Part shown: positions 17,525-40,620 of the stretch, piece by piece
How positions within the stretch are numbered: the stretch's first letter is position 1
How the letters are laid out: every line of letters starts with the position of its first letter
NCBI GenBank assembly: GCA_007115975.1
Contig: SKJJ01000022.1
Location: forward strand, 1-42,714
DNA from: Chitinispirillum sp.
GTDB taxonomy: Bacteria; Fibrobacterota; Chitinivibrionia; Chitinivibrionales; Chitinispirillaceae
Direction: 5' to 3'
Length of the DNA stretch: 42,714 nucleotides
Program-made: the position numbers and the translations under genes
Notes under the pieces: generated by a model
The model's input: the letters and a program-made list of their open reading frames with translations, nothing else
The model's database searches: none
Told to the model about the DNA's origin: nothing

Positions 17525-19141
17525 CTATTCTGATTTTTTCCTCAGCACGGTATCTTTCCTCCAGTATCTGTTGTTAAGCTTTGAGTGGTCGGTTGTGTAG
17601 TGAAGTCCTCTGCTCTCTTTTCTCCTCAGAGCTGATGTTATTATGAGTCGTGAAATGGTAACGATGTTTCTGAGTTCAAGGAGCTGTGGGGTAATTCTGG
17701 TTTTTTTGTAGAAATTTTCTATCTCTTTCTCAAGAAGGTCTATCCGCCGTAGTGCTCGGTGAAGGCGCAGATCTGAGCGTACGATTCCTACATAGTCCCA
17801 CATTACAGATCGTATCTCATTAAAATTGTGTGAAAGAAGAATCCACTCTTCAAAATCATGGGTGCCGCTGTCGTCCCAGTCCGGTATCTGGCACGCCTTT
17901 GGGACGGTGTTTGTTGTAACCTTAATAGCCGCATCATGCACCGCTCTGTATGAAAACACCAGCGCTTCGAGCAGTGAATTGGATGCCAGGCGGTTGGCTC
18001 CGTGAACACCGGTGTATGCGGTTTCCCCACAGGCGTAAAGATTCGCAATGTCGGTATTCCCTGTGTGGTTTACCACAATCCCACCACATATATAGTGAGC
18101 AGCAGGAACAACGGGGATAAGCTCCTTGGTGATGTCTATACCATGTTTAAGGCATCTCTTAAAGATATTGGGGAACTGTTGTTTTGTCTCCTGCTCGGGC
18201 TTGTCTCTAATGTCGAGAAATACGCATGGCTCACCGCTGATTTTCATCTCGTTGTCTATAGCTCGTGCAACGATATCTCGTGGAGCCAGTGAGCCGGATT
18301 TGTGGTATTTGTCCATAAATGCATTACCGGATCTATCCCGAAGCACTGCCCCATATCCCCGTAATGCTTCGCTAATCAAAAAAGAGTCTGCGTCTGGATG
18401 ATACAGGGTTGTGGGGTGAAACTGAATAAACTCCATATTGGCCACTCTGGCTCCGGCCCTGTAGGCCATCGCGACGCCATCTCCGGTGGCAATTGCCGGA
18501 TTGGTGGTGTGAAGATAGACTCGTCCTGCCCCTCCTGTTGAGACACAGGTCGTTTTAGCACGTACCTTGAAAACAGATCTCTCTACACAGTCAAGAACAT
18601 AGGCGCCGTAACAGGTGCCCGGAAGAGACTCTTTTTTTAGATGATGATCGGTGATGAGTTCCACGGCAAAGTGATTTTCGTAAATAGCAACATTGTTAAG
18701 ACTGCGCACTCTTCTCAGTAGCGTGTCCTCAAGTTCCTTGCCGGTGAGATCCTTTGCATGCACTATTCTGTTCTCAGAGTGCCCGCCCTCCTTTCCCAGG
18801 TGAAAATCGTAGGGGTTGTCGGTGCTGCGGGATTTCGAAAAGGATACGCCCCACTGCAAAAGCTCCTTGAGGCGCGCCGGCCCCTCTTCAACAACAATCC
18901 TAACCGATTCAGGATTACACAATTCGCTTCCGGCAGTGATGGTATCTTCTATGTGTTTTTCGAAACTGTCATTTTCACTCAGAACACAGGCGATACCCCC
19001 CTGGGCATAGTTGGTGTTCGAATCGCTATCCTGTTTTTTAGTTATCATGATAACTGAACCAAACTCAGCTGCATGAATTGCATAGCAAAGCCCTGCGATG
19101 CCGCTTCCAATGACCAGAAAATCACAGTGGTTATCATTCAT
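17525..19141 (-). CDS. nadB: L-aspartate oxidase
   Basis: This 538-residue flavoprotein oxidises L-aspartate to iminoaspartate, the first step of de novo NAD synthesis. The FAD site is G-S-G-I-A-G-L near residue 12. The family motifs N-Y-A-Q-G-G-I-A, K-E-G-G-H-S with its arginine-containing continuation, and H-P-T-T-L-Y / G-V-H-G-A-N-R-L-A-S-N-S-L-L-E-A are all present. The length is almost the same as the E. coli enzyme. The C-terminal helical domain is intact. Confusion with succinate dehydrogenase subunit A is unlikely, because no SdhB/C genes are adjacent and the length is NadB-like. nadA and nadC are not in the window. The start ATG is at 19141, with only a weak ribosome site. Confidence 0.93.
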   Translation of the reverse strand: MNDNHCDFLVIGSGIAGLCYAIHAAEFGSVIMITKKQDSDSNTNYAQGGIACVLSENDSFEKHIEDTITAGSELCNPESVRIVVEEGPARLKELLQWGVSFSKSRSTDNPYDFHLGKEGGHSENRIVHAKDLTGKELEDTLLRRVRSLNNVAIYENHFAVELITDHHLKKESLPGTCYGAYVLDCVERSVFKVRAKTTCVSTGGAGRVYLHTTNPAIATGDGVAMAYRAGARVANMEFIQFHPTTLYHPDADSFLISEALRGYGAVLRDRSGNAFMDKYHKSGSLAPRDIVARAIDNEMKISGEPCVFLDIRDKPEQETKQQFPNIFKRCLKHGIDITKELIPVVPAAHYICGGIVVNHTGNTDIANLYACGETAYTGVHGANRLASNSLLEALVFSYRAVHDAAIKVTTNTVPKACQIPDWDDSGTHDFEEWILLSHNFNEIRSVMWDYVGIVRSDLRLHRALRRIDLLEKEIENFYKKTRITPQLLELRNIVTISRLIITSALRRKESRGLHYTTDHSKLNNRYWRKDTVLRKKSE

Positions 19142-19539: not shown

Positions 19540-19869
19540 GTGTTTTTAAAATGCATTTCTTGGCGTAACAACTCTACTCTGCTCGCTCTGCTAAGCAGCA
19601 TACTCCTGCTTGTATCTCTATGCGGTGCAGATTCTCCTCTGGATGAGCCTGTTCAGATAATTTTTGAGCAACAGGTGATTGAAGGGCAAATTAGACGGCC
19701 GCAACTGGTACTTATAAGTGTGGATCAGCGTCCGGAATTTCCTTCACTGAAGCTCTTTGCACATGGGGAGTCGGGGAGTGTGAGTCTGGGTGAGGATGTT
19801 TTCGGGGAACTACCGAACAGATCGCCCTTTATTTTTAGCAGAACCGACCTGCTGTATCCGTCTCCGTAA
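19540..19869 (+). CDS. small exported protein at the head of the motor cluster
   Basis: This 109-residue protein has a basic start, a hydrophobic stretch (about residues 13-29) and probable signal-peptidase cleavage after C-G-A near 30. The start is GTG with AAGAGG eight bases upstream (19526-19531). The mature part includes I-I-F-E-Q-Q-V-I-E-G-Q-I-R-R-P-Q-L-V-L-I. I recall similar E-G-x-I-x-x-P segments in small proteins next to TolQ/TolR genes of gliding-type clusters, but cannot verify this here. It lies 266 bases before the first TolQ gene in the same direction. A periplasmic accessory role is inferred. Confidence 0.6.
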   Translation: MFLKCISWRNNSTLLALLSSILLLVSLCGADSPLDEPVQIIFEQQVIEGQIRRPQLVLISVDQRPEFPSLKLFAHGESGSVSLGEDVFGELPNRSPFIFSRTDLLYPSP

Positions 19870-20135: not shown

Positions 20136-20903
20136 ATGAGTTTTCTTGAGATGTTTTTCTTTTCATTCAATCGTTCGCAACCGGGCTGGATGTTCATGTG
20201 GGTGATTCTTACCACTGCAGTATTTGCCCTTGCAGTTGCGATTGAGCGGTTTATCGCTCTTTCATCAAAGAGTCTGTTCCGACCAGATCAGTTTATGAAA
20301 AATCTTACCGATTGTATAAAAAAAGATGATCTGCCTTCTGCTAACAATCTTATCAAAAAATATCAAAAGAGTGCTTTGGGGCTGGTCCTCAGACCGGTAG
20401 TTGATGAAGCTTCTAATGGGGCAGACAGGATCCGTAACTCTTCGGATGAGGCGGTGTTGCGTGTGATTCCCGCTCTTGAAAAACGTACCGCTTTTCTTGG
20501 AACCATTGGTAATGTTGCTACTCTTCTAGGATTGATGGGTACAATCTATGGGCTGATTATTTCCTTTGCCGCAGTGGGAAGACCCGGAATCGATCCGGCT
20601 GAAAAATCAGCACTTTTGGCGCAGGGTATTGCTGCTGCAATGAACACCACCTACATGGGGCTTCTTGTTGCAATTCCCTGTATTGCATTGTACACCTTTC
20701 TTAAAGGCAAAACACAGAAGATAATAGATCAGATAGACGAGTGTTCGCTCAGAGTTGTAAATATGCTTGTTGAGCGCTCCTTTAAAACGCACAAGTACCA
20801 TATCAATGTCTCTCAGCTCAAGGAGGGTGTTGGGGTACACGTGACTCATAATAACATCAAACTGTTTGCCGATAACAAACTGATAAAAGAGATCAGTATC
20901 TGA
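20136..20903 (+). CDS. MotA/TolQ/ExbB-family motor protein
   Basis: This 255-residue protein has the three-helix TolQ/ExbB fold: membrane segments about 17-38, 122-147 and 165-188, with a cytoplasmic domain between the first two. The conserved ion-path threonines are present as Thr136 in G-L-M-G-T-I and Thr171/172 in A-M-N-T-T. The start has CGGAGG nine bases upstream. A second TolQ-like gene follows after seven bases. With the TolR and TonB-like genes downstream it should form a proton- or sodium-driven motor like Tol-Pal, Exb-TonB or the Agl gliding motor. The presence of two Q proteins, G-L-M-G-T-I-Y-G-L motifs and the AgmX-like partner favour the Agl-type group, by inference. Confidence 0.88.
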   Translation: MSFLEMFFFSFNRSQPGWMFMWVILTTAVFALAVAIERFIALSSKSLFRPDQFMKNLTDCIKKDDLPSANNLIKKYQKSALGLVLRPVVDEASNGADRIRNSSDEAVLRVIPALEKRTAFLGTIGNVATLLGLMGTIYGLIISFAAVGRPGIDPAEKSALLAQGIAAAMNTTYMGLLVAIPCIALYTFLKGKTQKIIDQIDECSLRVVNMLVERSFKTHKYHINVSQLKEGVGVHVTHNNIKLFADNKLIKEISI

Positions 20904-20910
20904 GAATGCC

Positions 20911-22188
20911 ATGCACTTTCTGAATGAATTCCTGCAATCCTTTTCTCCTGCTCAAACCGGTCACCTCTTCATGTGGGTGCTTTCGGCTCTGGCTGTAGTG
21001 CTTCTGGTGCTTATCGTGGAACGGTATTGGGATATCACCTCAAAAGTATCCCTGAATGCACCTCTTTTTATACAGGATATTACTGCTCTTCTAAGGGAGG
21101 GGAACTTTGAGGAAGCCCAAAGAATCTGTCGGTTCGGGGGACAACGGCCTCTGCCAAAGATTCTTGGTGCTGCAATCGAGAAACTGGGGACTTTTCCCGA
21201 ACTGGTTGTAGCATCGATGGAGGAGGCCGCTCTGTCCGTTTTGCCCGGTTTGGAAAAGAGGCTCAACGCAGTAGCAGTGTGTGGTAATCTGGCAACACTT
21301 CTTGGGTTGATGGGCACAATTTACGGACTTATCCTCTCATTTGCTGCTGTTGCACAGGACGGGATCCCAGCTTCCGAGAAAGCATCCATGCTTGCAACCG
21401 GCATATCAACAGCTATGAATACCACGTTGCTTGGACTGGTCATAGCAATTCCATCGGTCTTGGCATATGCATTTCTCAGGGGCAGGGTGGATGAGGCTCA
21501 CCAGGAAATTGACCGGTACACCCTTTCACTTCTTAAAAACCTCAACATCCCCAATGTAACAAAAAGTTACAGCCTCTCTTCCCGTCGTATAAAAGAGGAG
21601 ATAGACACAGAGCCCAATATGGTTCCGTTCATGAATCTTATGGTGGTGTTAATACCGCTTCTACTCTCATCATCGGAATTTGTAAAACTGGGAATGATAG
21701 AGATCAAGTTGCCCGAATCCATTGCAGAGCAAGCTGGGGAGGCTCTTGGAGAGGGGAGCCAAAAGGACAAAACTCTTGACCTCACAATAGTTGTCACCGC
21801 TCAAGGTTTCAGGCTCAGACACAGCTTTGGCGACAGCGACAACGCGGGTGATTCAATTGCTCTTGTTGGGGGAGAATATGACTTTGATGCCCTGAATATC
21901 TCCTTACAGGAGATTAAACGCAAGGCCCTGCTTGAAATTCTTGGCCTTGTAAGTTCGGATATCCCACAGTCCGCTGCTCTTCATGAGCTTTACCGGGCAT
22001 ATATTTCACGCGATTTTTCATCCGTTAAACATCTGTCCGACCATGAAAATCTCAGCATTGCAGCGGAGGAGACGGTCAACTATCAGACGGTTATCTCTGT
22101 TATGGATGCTGCACGGGGAATTAATGTTCAGGGGATTGGCGTTACGATGTTTCCTAATGTCTCTATTGCAGGAGGAGTTGCTCAGTAA
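20911..22188 (+). CDS. TolQ/ExbB-TolR/ExbD fusion protein
   Basis: This 425-residue protein joins two normally separate motor parts. Residues 1-210 form a TolQ/ExbB domain (helices about 18-37, 122-147, 165-188) with Thr136 and Thr171/172 kept. Residues 232-425 look like TolR/ExbD: a single helix with V-P-F-M-N-L-M-V-V-L (about 238-253), then the L-P-E-S segment and a periplasmic domain ending in a Y-Q-T-V-I-S-V-M-D-A-A motif. The helix aligns with P-F-I-D-V-M-L-V-L-L of ExbD, but the ion-carrying Asp is Asn242. This half may therefore be structural, with proton transfer left to the separate TolR. The stop overlaps the next start by one base (TAATG). Confidence 0.85.
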   Translation: MHFLNEFLQSFSPAQTGHLFMWVLSALAVVLLVLIVERYWDITSKVSLNAPLFIQDITALLREGNFEEAQRICRFGGQRPLPKILGAAIEKLGTFPELVVASMEEAALSVLPGLEKRLNAVAVCGNLATLLGLMGTIYGLILSFAAVAQDGIPASEKASMLATGISTAMNTTLLGLVIAIPSVLAYAFLRGRVDEAHQEIDRYTLSLLKNLNIPNVTKSYSLSSRRIKEEIDTEPNMVPFMNLMVVLIPLLLSSSEFVKLGMIEIKLPESIAEQAGEALGEGSQKDKTLDLTIVVTAQGFRLRHSFGDSDNAGDSIALVGGEYDFDALNISLQEIKRKALLEILGLVSSDIPQSAALHELYRAYISRDFSSVKHLSDHENLSIAAEETVNYQTVISVMDAARGINVQGIGVTMFPNVSIAGGVAQ

Positions 22189-22691
22189 TGGCTATCGCGC
22201 GTGTAAAAAGAGCTGCGAGAAAGAAAAGAGGCGCTTCGGAATCAAAGCTCAATATTACCTCCATGATGGATATGTTTACCATTATCCTGGTCTTTCTTAT
22301 CAAAAATTACTCCAGCGGAGGGGCTATAGTGACCCCTGCTGACAACCTGACCCTTCCAAGTTCAATTGTTGAACAGTCTGCAAAAGAAGCGCTTAATGTG
22401 AAAATTGCCCGTAACACGGTTATGGTTGAAAATAATCTGGTCATTGACTCTGATCAATACCCGAAAATTGCAGATCAGCAGGAGTTTATGATTGAGCCTC
22501 TCTATGAAGAGCTCAGTGAGTTTGCCCGCAGGGCTCAGCAGTTGGCTCAGTCCACAGGGCAGGAATTTTCTGGTATGATTACGATTCAGGGTGATGCCGA
22601 AATTCCTTACAGTATTCTGACACGGATAATGTACACCTGTGGTCAGGCAGGGTATCCAAATATGAACCTTTTCGTTTACAGGCAGGACTGA
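22188..22691 (+). CDS. TolR/ExbD-family motor protein
   Basis: This 167-residue protein has a basic cytoplasmic start, one membrane helix (about 23-43) and a periplasmic domain. The helix contains N-I-T-S-M-M-D-M-F-T-I-I-L, with Asp28 at the position of the essential proton-binding Asp of ExbD/TolR. The remainder ends with a P-Y-S-I-L-T-R-I-M-Y-T-C segment typical of the family. It starts at the last base of the preceding fusion gene, indicating tight co-translation. In the complex it is probably the only TolR copy with a functional ion-binding residue. The TonB/AgmX-type gene follows after 13 bases. Confidence 0.85.
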   Translation: MAIARVKRAARKKRGASESKLNITSMMDMFTIILVFLIKNYSSGGAIVTPADNLTLPSSIVEQSAKEALNVKIARNTVMVENNLVIDSDQYPKIADQQEFMIEPLYEELSEFARRAQQLAQSTGQEFSGMITIQGDAEIPYSILTRIMYTCGQAGYPNMNLFVYRQD

Positions 22692-22704: not shown

Positions 22705-23736
22705 ATGTCTCTGAGAGCTTCAGAAACAGCAAATATGAGAACTTCTGCATTTCCGTCACGGTTCAGACGGCGCCTGCTCAGTGGGTTTGATCGCAGGTTT
22801 ACCCTCATCCTGGCGGTCTGTGCTCTGCTGTTATATACAGCGGTGACTCTGTTGTCCTTACGTGAACCATCCCAGGTCTTAACCGAGCAGCAGATCATTC
22901 AGGTGCAACAGCGGTATGCACGCCTTGTGCTCAATCAGCCGGTGGAGCAAAAAACCGCGGATCCGCAGATCACCAAAACCGTCCAAGAGGTTGTTGATAC
23001 CAAGGGTGCGGCGACTCAGGATGAGCCGCGCCGGGAAGCGGCCTCGTTCGAACAGCTCGAGCACAGACGTGCTGCAACTCAGCAGGACCGTGCCGCTCAA
23101 AGGGAAGTTGTAGCACGGGAGGTGCAGTCCAAGGGGATATTTGCAGCTATCACTTCCAGAAGTTCTTCCGGTACTGCCCGTTCTGCAGCGGTTGATCTTA
23201 TCGGCTCTGCGGCGCTGAGGCCTATTGAGGGGGCCACTCCTGGTGTTACAGGGGTGTTTGGGCAAAGAGCCCCTTCATCATCTGAGGTACTGACCAGAAG
23301 AGAGAGCAGGTCTGAGGCGGCAGTGATTACACGGGATGAGCCGCAAAGGGCAGACATAGGGCAGTTACAGATCTCCGGCGAGGTAAAGGTCACTTCCACC
23401 CCGCTTTCCATGCCATCAGCTCAGGCCGATGTGGAAACTGAAAGAACCCAGGCTTCAATACAACGGGTTGTTAATACTGAAATCCGCCGGCTCAGAAGGG
23501 TGTACGAGGATTGGTTAAAGAGGGATCCGGAAATTTCAGGAACACTTACCATACAGTTTTCTATTTTGCCCTCCGGTGAAGTTACCGGGCTTTCGGTGCT
23601 CAGCTCCACAACGGGAAATGATGAATTTGACAACCATATTCTGCGATATGTAGTGCGGTGGAAATTTCCTCCTGTACCCGCAAGTGAAACGGTCGAAATA
23701 CAATATCCGTTTGTTTTTGAGGGTTTTCGTGGGTAG
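22705..23736 (+). CDS. TonB/AgmX-type energy transducer
   Basis: This 343-residue protein has a basic N-terminus, one membrane helix (about 32-51), a long Q/A/R/E-rich periplasmic stretch (about 55-250) and a C-terminal domain (about 255-343). The C-terminal domain has L-R-R-V-Y-E-D-W-L-K-R-D-P, S-G-T-L-T-I-Q-F and R-W-K-F-P-P-V-P followed by Y-P-F-V-F. That pattern is the TonB_C/AgmX_C type: it reaches through the periplasm and transmits motion of the TolQR complex to an outer-membrane partner. The start ATG has GGGGTG close in front. It ends the tightly packed part of the cluster; 134 bases follow before the FliL-like gene. Confidence 0.85.
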   Translation: MSLRASETANMRTSAFPSRFRRRLLSGFDRRFTLILAVCALLLYTAVTLLSLREPSQVLTEQQIIQVQQRYARLVLNQPVEQKTADPQITKTVQEVVDTKGAATQDEPRREAASFEQLEHRRAATQQDRAAQREVVAREVQSKGIFAAITSRSSSGTARSAAVDLIGSAALRPIEGATPGVTGVFGQRAPSSSEVLTRRESRSEAAVITRDEPQRADIGQLQISGEVKVTSTPLSMPSAQADVETERTQASIQRVVNTEIRRLRRVYEDWLKRDPEISGTLTIQFSILPSGEVTGLSVLSSTTGNDEFDNHILRYVVRWKFPPVPASETVEIQYPFVFEGFRG

Positions 23737-37734: not shown

Positions 37735-37802
37735 ATAGGTAAGAAAGATGTAGCGGTTTATCGGTGTTCAGTCGTCTTAATGATAGAAAAGGGGAGACTG
37801 AT

Positions 37803-38309
37803 TTGGGGTCAGAGTCTTCAGGTGAATTACGGGATTTATACAAACAATATGCCTCAGTGGTTCACTCCCGCTGTGTATCAATTTTGAAGTCTGAAGATGA
37901 TGCATGGGATGCTACTCAGGAGGTTTTTATGAAGCTTAATAGAGCTCTTCCTACAATCAGAAACAAACAGGCCATTTTCTCCTGGCTGATGAGTGCCAGT
38001 ACCAATCACTGCATATCAGTGCTCAGAAGAAGAAAAACCATTGAATTTGATGAGAATATTCATCGGCAGGGTGAGGCGGATATCCCTGTGCAGGAGAAGA
38101 AACTGGCTATGAAAGAGCTGTTCAGGCGTTACTTTCTGCCCTGGAACAAAAAGGTCCAGCAGGTGCTCTTTTACACCTATATAGATGGATATAAGCAGCA
38201 GGAGATAGCAAAACTCACCGGGCTGGGGGAATCTACAATCAGAAAATATCTTACCAATTTTCGCCGGGCCTGTGGTGCTGGGGAAGTTAAGCCTGAGGAG
38301 GTATTATGA
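37803..38309 (+). CDS. ECF-like sigma factor of the caspase operon
   Basis: This is a sigma-70 family protein of 168 residues from TTG 37803, where GGGGAG (37791-37796) is well placed. An in-frame GTG at 37764 would add 13 residues but lacks a ribosome site. Region 2 has L-Y-K-Q-Y...D-D-A-W-D-A-T-Q-E-V-F-M-K-L and F-S-W-L-M. Region 4 has Y-K-Q-Q-E-I-A-K-L-T-G-L with S-T-I-R-K-Y-L. It is diverged from typical ECF factors, notably in region 2 (S-T-N-H-C-I-S-V-L-R-R-R). The stop overlaps the anti-sigma start by four bases (ATGA). The nested repeat directly upstream may control it. Target promoters are unknown; autoregulation is likely by analogy. Confidence 0.82.
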   Translation: MGSESSGELRDLYKQYASVVHSRCVSILKSEDDAWDATQEVFMKLNRALPTIRNKQAIFSWLMSASTNHCISVLRRRKTIEFDENIHRQGEADIPVQEKKLAMKELFRRYFLPWNKKVQQVLFYTYIDGYKQQEIAKLTGLGESTIRKYLTNFRRACGAGEVKPEEVL

Positions 38310-39106
38310 AACAGGAACCAGGACGGCTTGCACTTCAGAGATATTTCACCGGTGACCTTGAAGATGCCGATGCTCTTGAAATCAGATCTCATTTGGAAAA
38401 CTGTGCTGAGTGCAGCAGATACATAGAAGAGCTTGAAGCTGAGAAAAAACGTTTTTTGAATCTTCATCCGGTTGAAGAGTTTCTGGCTGCCGGTAAAAAG
38501 AAAAAAGTTCTCTTTGGGTTACCTGGTGTTATCCATTCTAAAGGATCTCTGGTGCCTGCATCGGTAGTGGCTCTGCTGTTACTTTTTATAGTTGCTCCTC
38601 TATGGTTTGCAGCTGTAAAAAACAGCAATGTACAGGAGTTTAGATATAAAGGATCGCAACAAATTCAGTTTCTGCTTAAAAGAGATGGAGTAATAGAGAA
38701 GGGGAATCTGTCTGAAACTTTCAGAGATGGTGACCAGATACAGGTTATGTATGAATCCTCAGGTTACCCTTATGTGGCTCTTTTCAGTGTTGACAATAAG
38801 GGTAATATTCATTTCTATCATCCGGATCACAGCTCTCTGTTCTGTACAGTTGATTCAGATTCCGGCACCGGTGCCTATTTCCCTTCGAGTATCATTGTCG
38901 ATGATCAGGGTGAGAATGAGCTCATAGTACTCATGCTCTCCAATGATGCAGTGAAAACAGTTGATGTAAAAAGTTGGATAGAAAATCAGCCTAAATTTGG
39001 TGGTCGTGATCTTGTTGGTCTGGAAAGTCAGCTGCAGTCAAATGTCCTTGGAGATGATTCTGAAATACACACTCTTTTAATAAGAAAACAGCAGGGAAAA
39101 CAGTGA
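38306..39106 (+). CDS. anti-sigma factor with outer DUF4384-like domain
   Basis: This 266-residue membrane protein has a ZAS motif His29-x3-Cys33-x2-Cys36 in its cytoplasmic part, which should hold the preceding sigma factor. One transmembrane helix lies at about residues 83-103. The outer part (about 110-255) has G-D-Q-I-Q-V-M-Y-E-S, Y-V-A-L-F-S-V-D-N-K-G-N-I-H-F-Y-H-P and a Y-F-P-S-S segment. This resembles DUF4384, a beta-rich domain I know from bacterial proteins that also carry caspase domains. Here it is on the anti-sigma factor while the caspase is the next gene. The start has GAGGAGG upstream, and the stop overlaps the next start (GTGA). The domain call is by eye. Confidence 0.8.
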   Translation: MKQEPGRLALQRYFTGDLEDADALEIRSHLENCAECSRYIEELEAEKKRFLNLHPVEEFLAAGKKKKVLFGLPGVIHSKGSLVPASVVALLLLFIVAPLWFAAVKNSNVQEFRYKGSQQIQFLLKRDGVIEKGNLSETFRDGDQIQVMYESSGYPYVALFSVDNKGNIHFYHPDHSSLFCTVDSDSGTGAYFPSSIIVDDQGENELIVLMLSNDAVKTVDVKSWIENQPKFGGRDLVGLESQLQSNVLGDDSEIHTLLIRKQQGKQ

Positions 39107-40620
39107 GAACGACAGCTTTTTCCCTTTGGGTTTTCTGTGTTGTCTCGCTCTGCGCTGCAAATCAGCGGTATGCCCTTCTTGTTGGGGCAGACCGGGGTGG
39201 TGATGAGCTTGCGGTATTAAAGTATGCCCAGTCGGATGCACAGCGGTTTGCAAATGTACTCAAAGGCCCGGGAGAGTTTTCTGATGGAACTATTACTACT
39301 CTTCTTGCCCCGGACAGCGCAGCGATTCACAAAGCACTCAATAAAATCAACGATGTTATACAGAGTAAACCTGATAAGAATACACTTCTGCTGTTCTATT
39401 ACTCCGGACATTCTGATGGGGAGTATCTGTTATTCGAAAATGACAGGTATCCACTTGGGAGTGTGAAAACCTTTCTGGACTCTTCGGGTGCAGATATCAG
39501 AATTGGAATATTTGATGCTTGTTATAGTGGTGCGGTTGTTGCATTCAGGGGTGGGAGGCGCGGTGATCCCTTCTTCATGGCCAGCGAAGAGAAAGTAAAG
39601 GGACAGGTGATAATATCCTCTTCTGCTGCTCACGAACGTGCCCAGGAGTCAGAGACTCTTCAGGGGTCAATATTTACCCACCATTGGCTTAACGGACTTA
39701 AAGGCAGCGCAGATCTTGATGGGGACCGGTATGTTACCCTGAACGAAGCCTATCGGTATGCCTATCATAAAACCATAGAGACATCAGCTTTAACCGGTGG
39801 TGGTCTGCAGCATCCTTCGTATCATTTCAATATTCAGGGGGAAGGTGAAATCCGCCTTACCAACCTGAACCGCTCAGTTTTAAGCGGTGTACTGTTTGAT
39901 AAAAGCTGTCATGGTGCATTTCTGGTTCTAAGCCCCACATTTGCAAATGTGTATGCTGATTTTAACAAGAAGAGCGGTAAAGAGACCTTTATCGCTCTTG
40001 CTCCCGGTGAATACAGTGCAATTAACGGCAGGGAAAGTGATGTTTATATAAAGCACTTTTCGGTCAGTGAAAGTGAGACGGTATATCTGACCAATAGCAT
40101 GCTGGTAAACAGACCTCTGGTTGATGTGACAAGAGTAAAAGGGCCTGAGCAGGCAGAATATGCACCTGCAACTCCGATTAATTACGATGATGCAAAGCTA
40201 AGTAAGTCAATTCAGTGGGGGCTTGGTACAGGTGTAATCTCTGGTTTCTGGAGCAACAGAGGTGCAGATATTTTACTTTCTGCTGTGGGGGTTTTCCCTC
40301 TGGAGGAGGAGAGAAGTCTGTATGGTGATCTGCAGGTTTTGCCCCTTAGAAAAAAGGTAGCTATTGGTGCCGGGGCCAATGTGTATAATCCCGTACTTGA
40401 CTTTGATATGTTTGCCGGAATGGGGGCTGCGCTGTGGTATGACCATCTCGGAGCCGACAGATTTGCACTTGCAGTACGGGCACAAACCGGTTTCAGCAGA
40501 AAAATCAGTGAGAGTATGGAGATTCAGGCACAAATTCCTTTTCTGTTTGTTTTTTCACGGGATATAGGGTTCAGGACCGGGATCGAAATGAGGGTGCTCT
40601 TTTCGGGAAATCGTTTGTAG
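39103..40620 (+). CDS. exported caspase-family (C14) protease with C-terminal beta-barrel-like domain
   Basis: This 505-residue protein starts at GTG, coupled to the anti-sigma gene. A signal peptide (about residues 1-19) is followed by a caspase-like domain (about 22-245). The catalytic His103 lies in Y-Y-S-G-H-S-D-G and Cys140 in D-A-C-Y-S-G. Prokaryotic caspases cut after specific residues, often Arg or Lys, in target proteins. A middle beta-rich part (about 250-360) follows. Residues about 370-505 look like outer-membrane strands, ending I-S-E-S-M-E-I-Q-A-Q-I-P then G-I-E-M-R-V-L-F. That tail resembles the end of the next protein, so the protease may be anchored in the outer membrane facing the periplasm. 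Its substrate is unknown; the anti-sigma outer domain is one candidate. Confidence 0.85.
   Translation: MRTTAFSLWVFCVVSLCAANQRYALLVGADRGGDELAVLKYAQSDAQRFANVLKGPGEFSDGTITTLLAPDSAAIHKALNKINDVIQSKPDKNTLLLFYYSGHSDGEYLLFENDRYPLGSVKTFLDSSGADIRIGIFDACYSGAVVAFRGGRRGDPFFMASEEKVKGQVIISSSAAHERAQESETLQGSIFTHHWLNGLKGSADLDGDRYVTLNEAYRYAYHKTIETSALTGGGLQHPSYHFNIQGEGEIRLTNLNRSVLSGVLFDKSCHGAFLVLSPTFANVYADFNKKSGKETFIALAPGEYSAINGRESDVYIKHFSVSESETVYLTNSMLVNRPLVDVTRVKGPEQAEYAPATPINYDDAKLSKSIQWGLGTGVISGFWSNRGADILLSAVGVFPLEEERSLYGDLQVLPLRKKVAIGAGANVYNPVLDFDMFAGMGAALWYDHLGADRFALAVRAQTGFSRKISESMEIQAQIPFLFVFSRDIGFRTGIEMRVLFSGNRL

Follow-up and report, generated by a model that had tools for sequence, protein, structure and literature searches.

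The window analysed here spans 42,714 nucleotides of a Chitinispirillum sp. contig (G000:C110); the draft genome totals 3.89 Mb over 236 contigs. A plus-strand operon with the genes of a putative motor occupies the interval from nadB (17525-19141, minus strand) to secA (24504). The first gene encodes a small exported-looking protein of 109 aa (19540-19869); in unfused relatives, Q is preceded by a short protein bearing a similar EKP/RPQ...LP motif. The next is Q1, a separate TolQ/ExbB protein of 255 aa (20136-20903; Pfam MotA_ExbB, E 3.9e-25, above the cut-off), which shares 57-70% identity with its counterparts in 15 other genomes. It is followed by QR' (20911-22188), a 425-aa fusion of a TolQ/ExbB domain with an Asp-less TolR/ExbD domain, by R2 (22188-22691), a TolR/ExbD protein of 167 aa, and by T (22705-23736), a TonB/GltG-like force transducer of 343 aa with its own membrane helix and an AgmX/PglI C-terminal domain. 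T was assigned by NCBIfam NF033768 (E 5.8e-23, above cut-off) and a Pfam TonB_C match; the GltG equivalog model scored below its cut-off. The stop codon of QR' and the start codon of R2 share one base (TAATG), and a one-base overlap was found in most fusion genomes. A 206-aa protein (23871) lies 3' of T and remains beside secA in genomes without the motor. Elsewhere in the window (37764-40620), three consecutive genes were judged by eye to encode an ECF-type sigma factor, a membrane protein resembling an anti-sigma factor, and a caspase-like protein (C14 style).

QR' is a single uninterrupted frame from an ATG at 20911 to a TAA ending at 22188. A sequence-only reading had described it as a TolQ-TolR fusion, and this was borne out by Pfam, which placed MotA_ExbB at residues 81-201 (E 2.8e-24) and, in the C-terminal half, ExbD at residues 232-413 (E 1.3e-12), both above the gathering score. 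An AlphaFold2 model built from three input sequences (pLDDT 61, R' helix poorly resolved) was used for topology and the Q fold only. It comprised three Q helices (residues 17-46, 96-148 and 154-210), a linker, one more helix and a beta-alpha periplasmic domain, and its top PDB match in Foldseek was E. coli TolQ (9ddm_B, E 5.3e-6). The Q half (approximately residues 1-210; 20911-21540) is about 37% identical to Q1 of the same operon. It is joined by a cytoplasmic linker, placed from the model and the alignment (approximately residues 211-231; 21541-21603), to the R' half (21604-22185), which consists of a pore-type helix and a periplasmic ExbD domain and groups with the Asp-less clade described below. 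In TolQ/TolR-type proteins the Q C-terminus and the R N-terminus are both cytoplasmic, so a Q-R' fusion is topologically simple.

The ion-path residues were located by alignment. Both path threonines reported earlier for the Q half, Thr136 and Thr171/172, are present: Thr136 (codon 21316-21318), the T of a GT pair, is the same in every Q aligned, and Thr172 (21424-21426), the second ion-path Thr, is invariant across Qs of paired-ExbD systems. Asn242 (21634-21636) aligns with the ion-carrying Asp of ExbD/TolR, as had been proposed, and R2 (Pfam ExbD, E 6.2e-14) keeps that residue as Asp28 (22269-22271). Domains and residues together supported the operon anatomy put forward in the earlier reading, namely two Q proteins together with an Asp-bearing and an Asp-less R.

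The fusion is present in 20 of 167 Fibrobacterota genomes, in the window's order and two more families. The residue at position 242 is Asn in 18 of these fusions, Gly in two (G041, G157) and Asp in none, and a mutation or error restricted to this genome was thereby excluded. The fragmented state of the draft genome, with its 236 contigs, is the point in favour of a local mutation, a pseudogene or an assembly error, but frame and junction are the same, and the Asp is absent, in 20 genomes of different species, and the probability left to such an artefact is negligible. Wherever the contig extends far enough, an Asp-bearing R comes next after the fusion, and its Asp28 is invariant (17 of 17 aligned partners, and also G157). 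The R' halves of the fusions form one clade (SH-aLRT 99), as do their Q halves (SH-aLRT 98). The motor operon has also been lost on occasion, since it is absent with intact flanks from a genome of the same genus (G001) and is represented in G011 by a truncated Q1 remnant of 181 aa (L114 1733-1188) upstream of secA at the operon's site.

The loss of the Asp extends beyond the fusion. In the window's own genome, all four paired-ExbD operons (including those on contigs C91, C23 and C56) have Asn in the first ExbD and Asp in the second, and all three single-ExbD operons keep Asp. Loci were then read across Fibrobacterota, with all PF02472 matches of ten additional genomes among them. The first ExbD of the pair lacks Asp at 75 of 76 loci (61 Asn, 7 Gly, 4 Ser, 2 Ala, 1 Cys), the sole exception (L204) belonging to another subfamily; the second carries Asp at 77 of 77, and single-system ExbDs all carry it. 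Some first members have no second in the piece read, either at contig ends or as Asp-less R' genes with no adjoining R (L125 2317-1541, L128 2757-1972, L211 3234-2395). These three lone genes may be remnants, and a transducer-like gene is still found downstream of the one at L128. At one locus of the window's own genome (C23; L088 1996-2373), a small STAS-like (anti-sigma-factor-antagonist-like) frame was called by eye between the Asp-less R' and the Asp-bearing R, and the same call was made in G001 (L094 1897-2223).

G025 (L174 847-1881) and G031 (L183 841-1878) carry another Q-R fusion, of independent origin, in which the Asp is retained. It falls in the branch of single-ExbD systems, with another Q upstream and no separate R adjoining. 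Fusion as the cause of Asp loss was ruled out by this Asp-keeping fusion and by the unfused Asp-less R' proteins. On the loci read here, Asp loss is not a property of the fusion and is typical of the first member in nearly every paired-ExbD operon of the phylum and in many beyond it. The earlier interpretation stands in part: an asymmetric motor is favoured by the long conservation of the arrangement, but the loss of the Asp is not tied to the fusion, and the roles suggested for the dead R, fixing geometry or lowering ion flux, would be hypothetical.

The R' profile (A3) was also run on approximately 290 genomes of other phyla, with strong matches in approximately 47. Among the 47 pairs outside the phylum, in the order Q-R'-R, the first member lacks Asp in 39 (35 Asn, 3 Ser, 1 Gly) and has it in 8, while the second has Asp in all 47. 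This tally takes in a locus with Ser on Vibrio alginolyticus plasmid pMBL287 (NZ_CP013487.1; L162 5677-8196), which encodes Q, R' (Ser), R (Asp) and a TonB-like protein. The R' gene there is annotated "hypothetical protein", and the motor genes are preceded by one gene for an outer-membrane barrel and another for a long repeat-like protein. The locus is the same motor class carried by a plasmid. The eight pairs with Asp in both members (L260, L265 of G192, L262, L263, L269, L231, L234 and L243) are likely of the AglQ/AglS type, fitting the published description of these proteins. Such loci are probably under-sampled because the search profile was built from Asp-less proteins. Their existence indicates that two carriers are workable in the paired-ExbD architecture, which weighs against the single-carrier reading proposed below.

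In the closest unfused relatives of the fusion (G207, G337, G453), the genes run small protein, Q, R', R, T. The window's operon therefore looks like this arrangement after duplication of Q and fusion of the second Q to R'.

In a tree of 176 ExbDs, from which five divergent loci were omitted, single-system proteins, R and Asp-less R' form three groups, with 72 sequences in the R' group (SH-aLRT 99) and 71 in the R group (SH-aLRT 97); the inner forks are weak because only about 140 columns were available. The same split was recovered when the membrane helix was removed (R' and R support 98 and 98). Outside the phylum the two members again separate, with one clade for the first (99) and one for the second (95). 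The R' clade on this tree includes members with Asp, and two changes suffice to account for Asp versus non-Asp.

The R' helix has a signature of its own. Pro249 of QR' (21655-21657), at +7 from the lost Asp, marks the Asp-less class: in counts that come from related sequences, with kinship ignored in the statistics, Pro is found at +7 in 115 of 122 Asp-less R' proteins and in none of 9 Asp-bearing first members, 123 second members and 40 single ExbDs. With a signature of this kind, the Asp-less helix is a conserved element and not a decaying one. Conservation at several R' helix positions exceeds that at their R counterparts, and the helix is under strong constraint of its own, with a new conserved proline. 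The constraint at the Asp site itself is "no acid" rather than "Asn", because Asn, Gly, Ser, Ala and Cys all occur there. This diversity bears on the idea that Asn242 is itself an ion ligand, for instance for Na+, in which case R' would carry a different ion and the axle would stay two-sited. Asn is the commonest residue at the site, as that idea would have it, but Gly, Ala, Ser and Cys in relatives, including the two Gly fusions, make it very improbable. A compensating acid elsewhere in the helix was also sought and rejected: acids are common at -8 and -6, at the cytoplasmic end, and a Glu lies near the periplasmic end in about half of the proteins, but no one of them takes the place of the mid-membrane Asp throughout the class.

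A linked change was found in Q. Position 129 (Thr129 of QR', codon 21295-21297), two helical turns from the ion-path Thr136, is Thr in 95 of 99 paired-system Qs, with Met or Ser in the rest, and Pro in 52 of 52 single-system Qs. Thr is also found at this position in most pairs with Asp in both members. A specific partnership of this change with Asp loss was rejected for that reason, and the change is taken to track the presence of two kinds of axle protein.

On this evidence the operon is proposed to encode a proton-driven inner-membrane motor of the AglRQS/Glt type, with an obligate R'-R2 axle that has one ion site and is partly tethered to the wheel; from the sequences and gene order a probability of roughly 60% is given to this reading. 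A Q wheel, made of Q1 and the Q half of QR', would enclose an axle of two different ExbD-like proteins, R' and R2. R2 alone would carry the protonatable Asp. R' would provide the second axle helix and a periplasmic domain and would bind no proton, its helix having gained the conserved proline two turns past the lost Asp. R' would hold the carrier helix off-axis and might set direction or gating. Force would be relayed to the outer membrane by T, which bears the AgmX/PglI domain.

Whether R' and R2 share a pore is the point on which the alternatives divide. They could instead form separate homodimers, which would count against a mixed axle: R2-R2 would be the active axle, and QR' would form inactive or regulatory complexes, or a brake that cuts the number of active motors. 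Contact between R' and R is a prediction, and whether the paired proteins heterodimerise is an open question even for AglQ and AglS (PMC9389320). Against separate pores, R' and R are adjacent and in fixed order in nearly every locus and occur together across phyla, the pore-type helix of R' is strongly conserved, and a device that served purely as a brake should not recur in every paired operon of a genome; the arrangement is considered rather unlikely. A fixed R'-R2 pair is favoured because R' is covalently joined to a wheel subunit and the QR' stop overlaps the R2 start. In a second alternative, the R' helix would lie outside the Q wheel, as the TonB/TolA helix does, and the Asp-bearing R alone would fill the pore. 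A missing Asp and a newly gained proline would suit a relocated helix. Against this, the operon encodes a TonB-like protein in any case, namely T, which brings a membrane helix of its own; the helix pattern and profile match of R' are still those of ExbD; and Asp-bearing members exist in the R' clade. This placement is less probable again and is regarded as doubtful.

With R' and R2 in one pore, the fusion would deliver R' and one wheel subunit as a single chain, with R2 supplied alongside through translational coupling. The simplest composition would be four Q1, one QR' and one R2. With several QR' per wheel, the axle could be R'-R' and dead. Because the cytoplasmic tip of the axle is free, the tether need not block rotation, although R' would be tied to its own wheel. 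In such a single-carrier motor one Asp would pass five wheel threonine sites in each turn, and would therefore move five ions in 72-degree steps, versus ten and 36 for two carriers; at equal proton motive force its torque limit would be half that of a two-carrier motor.

If the same holds for the relatives, there would be a widespread 5:2-type class that runs on a single protonatable axle subunit, with an obligate heterodimer of an Asp-bearing ExbD and an Asp-less, Pro-bearing one, making five ions and 72-degree steps per turn, and in Fibrobacterota the inert half would be joined to a wheel subunit. The odds on this generalisation are put at even. Such a class would challenge the models of MotAB, ExbBD and TolQR, which assume two equivalent, alternating axle carboxylates and ten ions per turn. 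A natural, conserved motor of the one-carboxylate kind would allow the need for both carboxylates and the number of ions per turn to be tested directly, without engineered mutants, and the Q-R' fusion would serve as a natural probe of wheel-axle stoichiometry and of the freedom of the wheel to rotate around the axle. The sequence rule (first ExbD without Asp and with Pro at +7, Thr for Pro in Q) sorts many genes now annotated "hypothetical" or "ExbD".

Among the papers searched, which were largely open-access, none was found to describe paired ExbDs without Asp or a fusion of TolQ with TolR. One review takes the axle to be two equal chains with ten ions per turn, describes tenfold symmetry as almost certainly universal, and states that five ions per turn would call for a new model (PMC9389320). 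Homologous Glt/Agl "core complex" clusters were reported in 2011 in one member of the Fibrobacteres and some Gammaproteobacteria; the passages of that paper on these clusters make no comment on the Asp (PMC3169522).

Two known systems were rejected as identities for the operon. For Tol-Pal, the window proteins scored well below the cut-offs of the NCBIfam TolQ/ExbB/TolR equivalog models (TIGR02796, 58.7 bits against a cut-off of 221; TIGR02801, 22-30 against 127), and the neighbours are T and secA rather than tolA-tolB-pal. For Zorya (ZorAB) defence, PADLOC gave no match to ZorB, and its hits to ZorA were weak and limited to the TolQ core that the families have in common (best E 9.8e-5). In the same searches, NCBIfam NF007722 (PRK10414.1) was seen to match ExbB under the description "tol-pal system-associated acyl-CoA thioesterase", which looks like a labelling error in the library.

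The operon resembles TolQR (Tol-Pal) and ExbBD (Ton) in its Q fold, which matches E. coli TolQ, its ExbD/TolR domain and its ion-path threonines. To our knowledge, known TolQR and ExbBD complexes contain one kind of R, which bears Asp, and no Q-R fusion, whereas the window's operon has two kinds of R, one of them Asp-less, and a Q-R fusion. The independent fusion of G025 and G031, in the same phylum, likewise joins TolQ and ExbD domains, but it retains the Asp and has no adjoining R. With MotAB and the other 5:2 rotary motors the operon shares the wheel-and-axle superfamily and the Asp/Thr ion path: Q1 and QR' match MotA_ExbB above cut-off, with Thr136 and Thr172 invariant in paired-system Qs, and R2 matches ExbD (E 6.2e-14) with Asp28. 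The axle of those motors consists of two identical chains, whereas the window has R' and R2, and an Asp in every axle subunit is not found here, R' having Asn242 and all 20 fusions Asn or Gly. The closest likeness is to AglRQS-Glt of Myxococcus xanthus, in which Q and two adjacent ExbD-like genes form one operon, corresponding to Q1/QR' and R'/R2 here. T is a TonB_C/AgmX-PglI-type transducer (NF033768 above cut-off), as in AglRQS-Glt and Nfs. AglQ and AglS are both described with Asp (PMC9389320), and the AglQ D28N substitution abolishes function in M. xanthus (PMC3858216). Unlike AglRQS, the window's first ExbD lacks the Asp, and this Asp-less axle protein is fused to a second Q.
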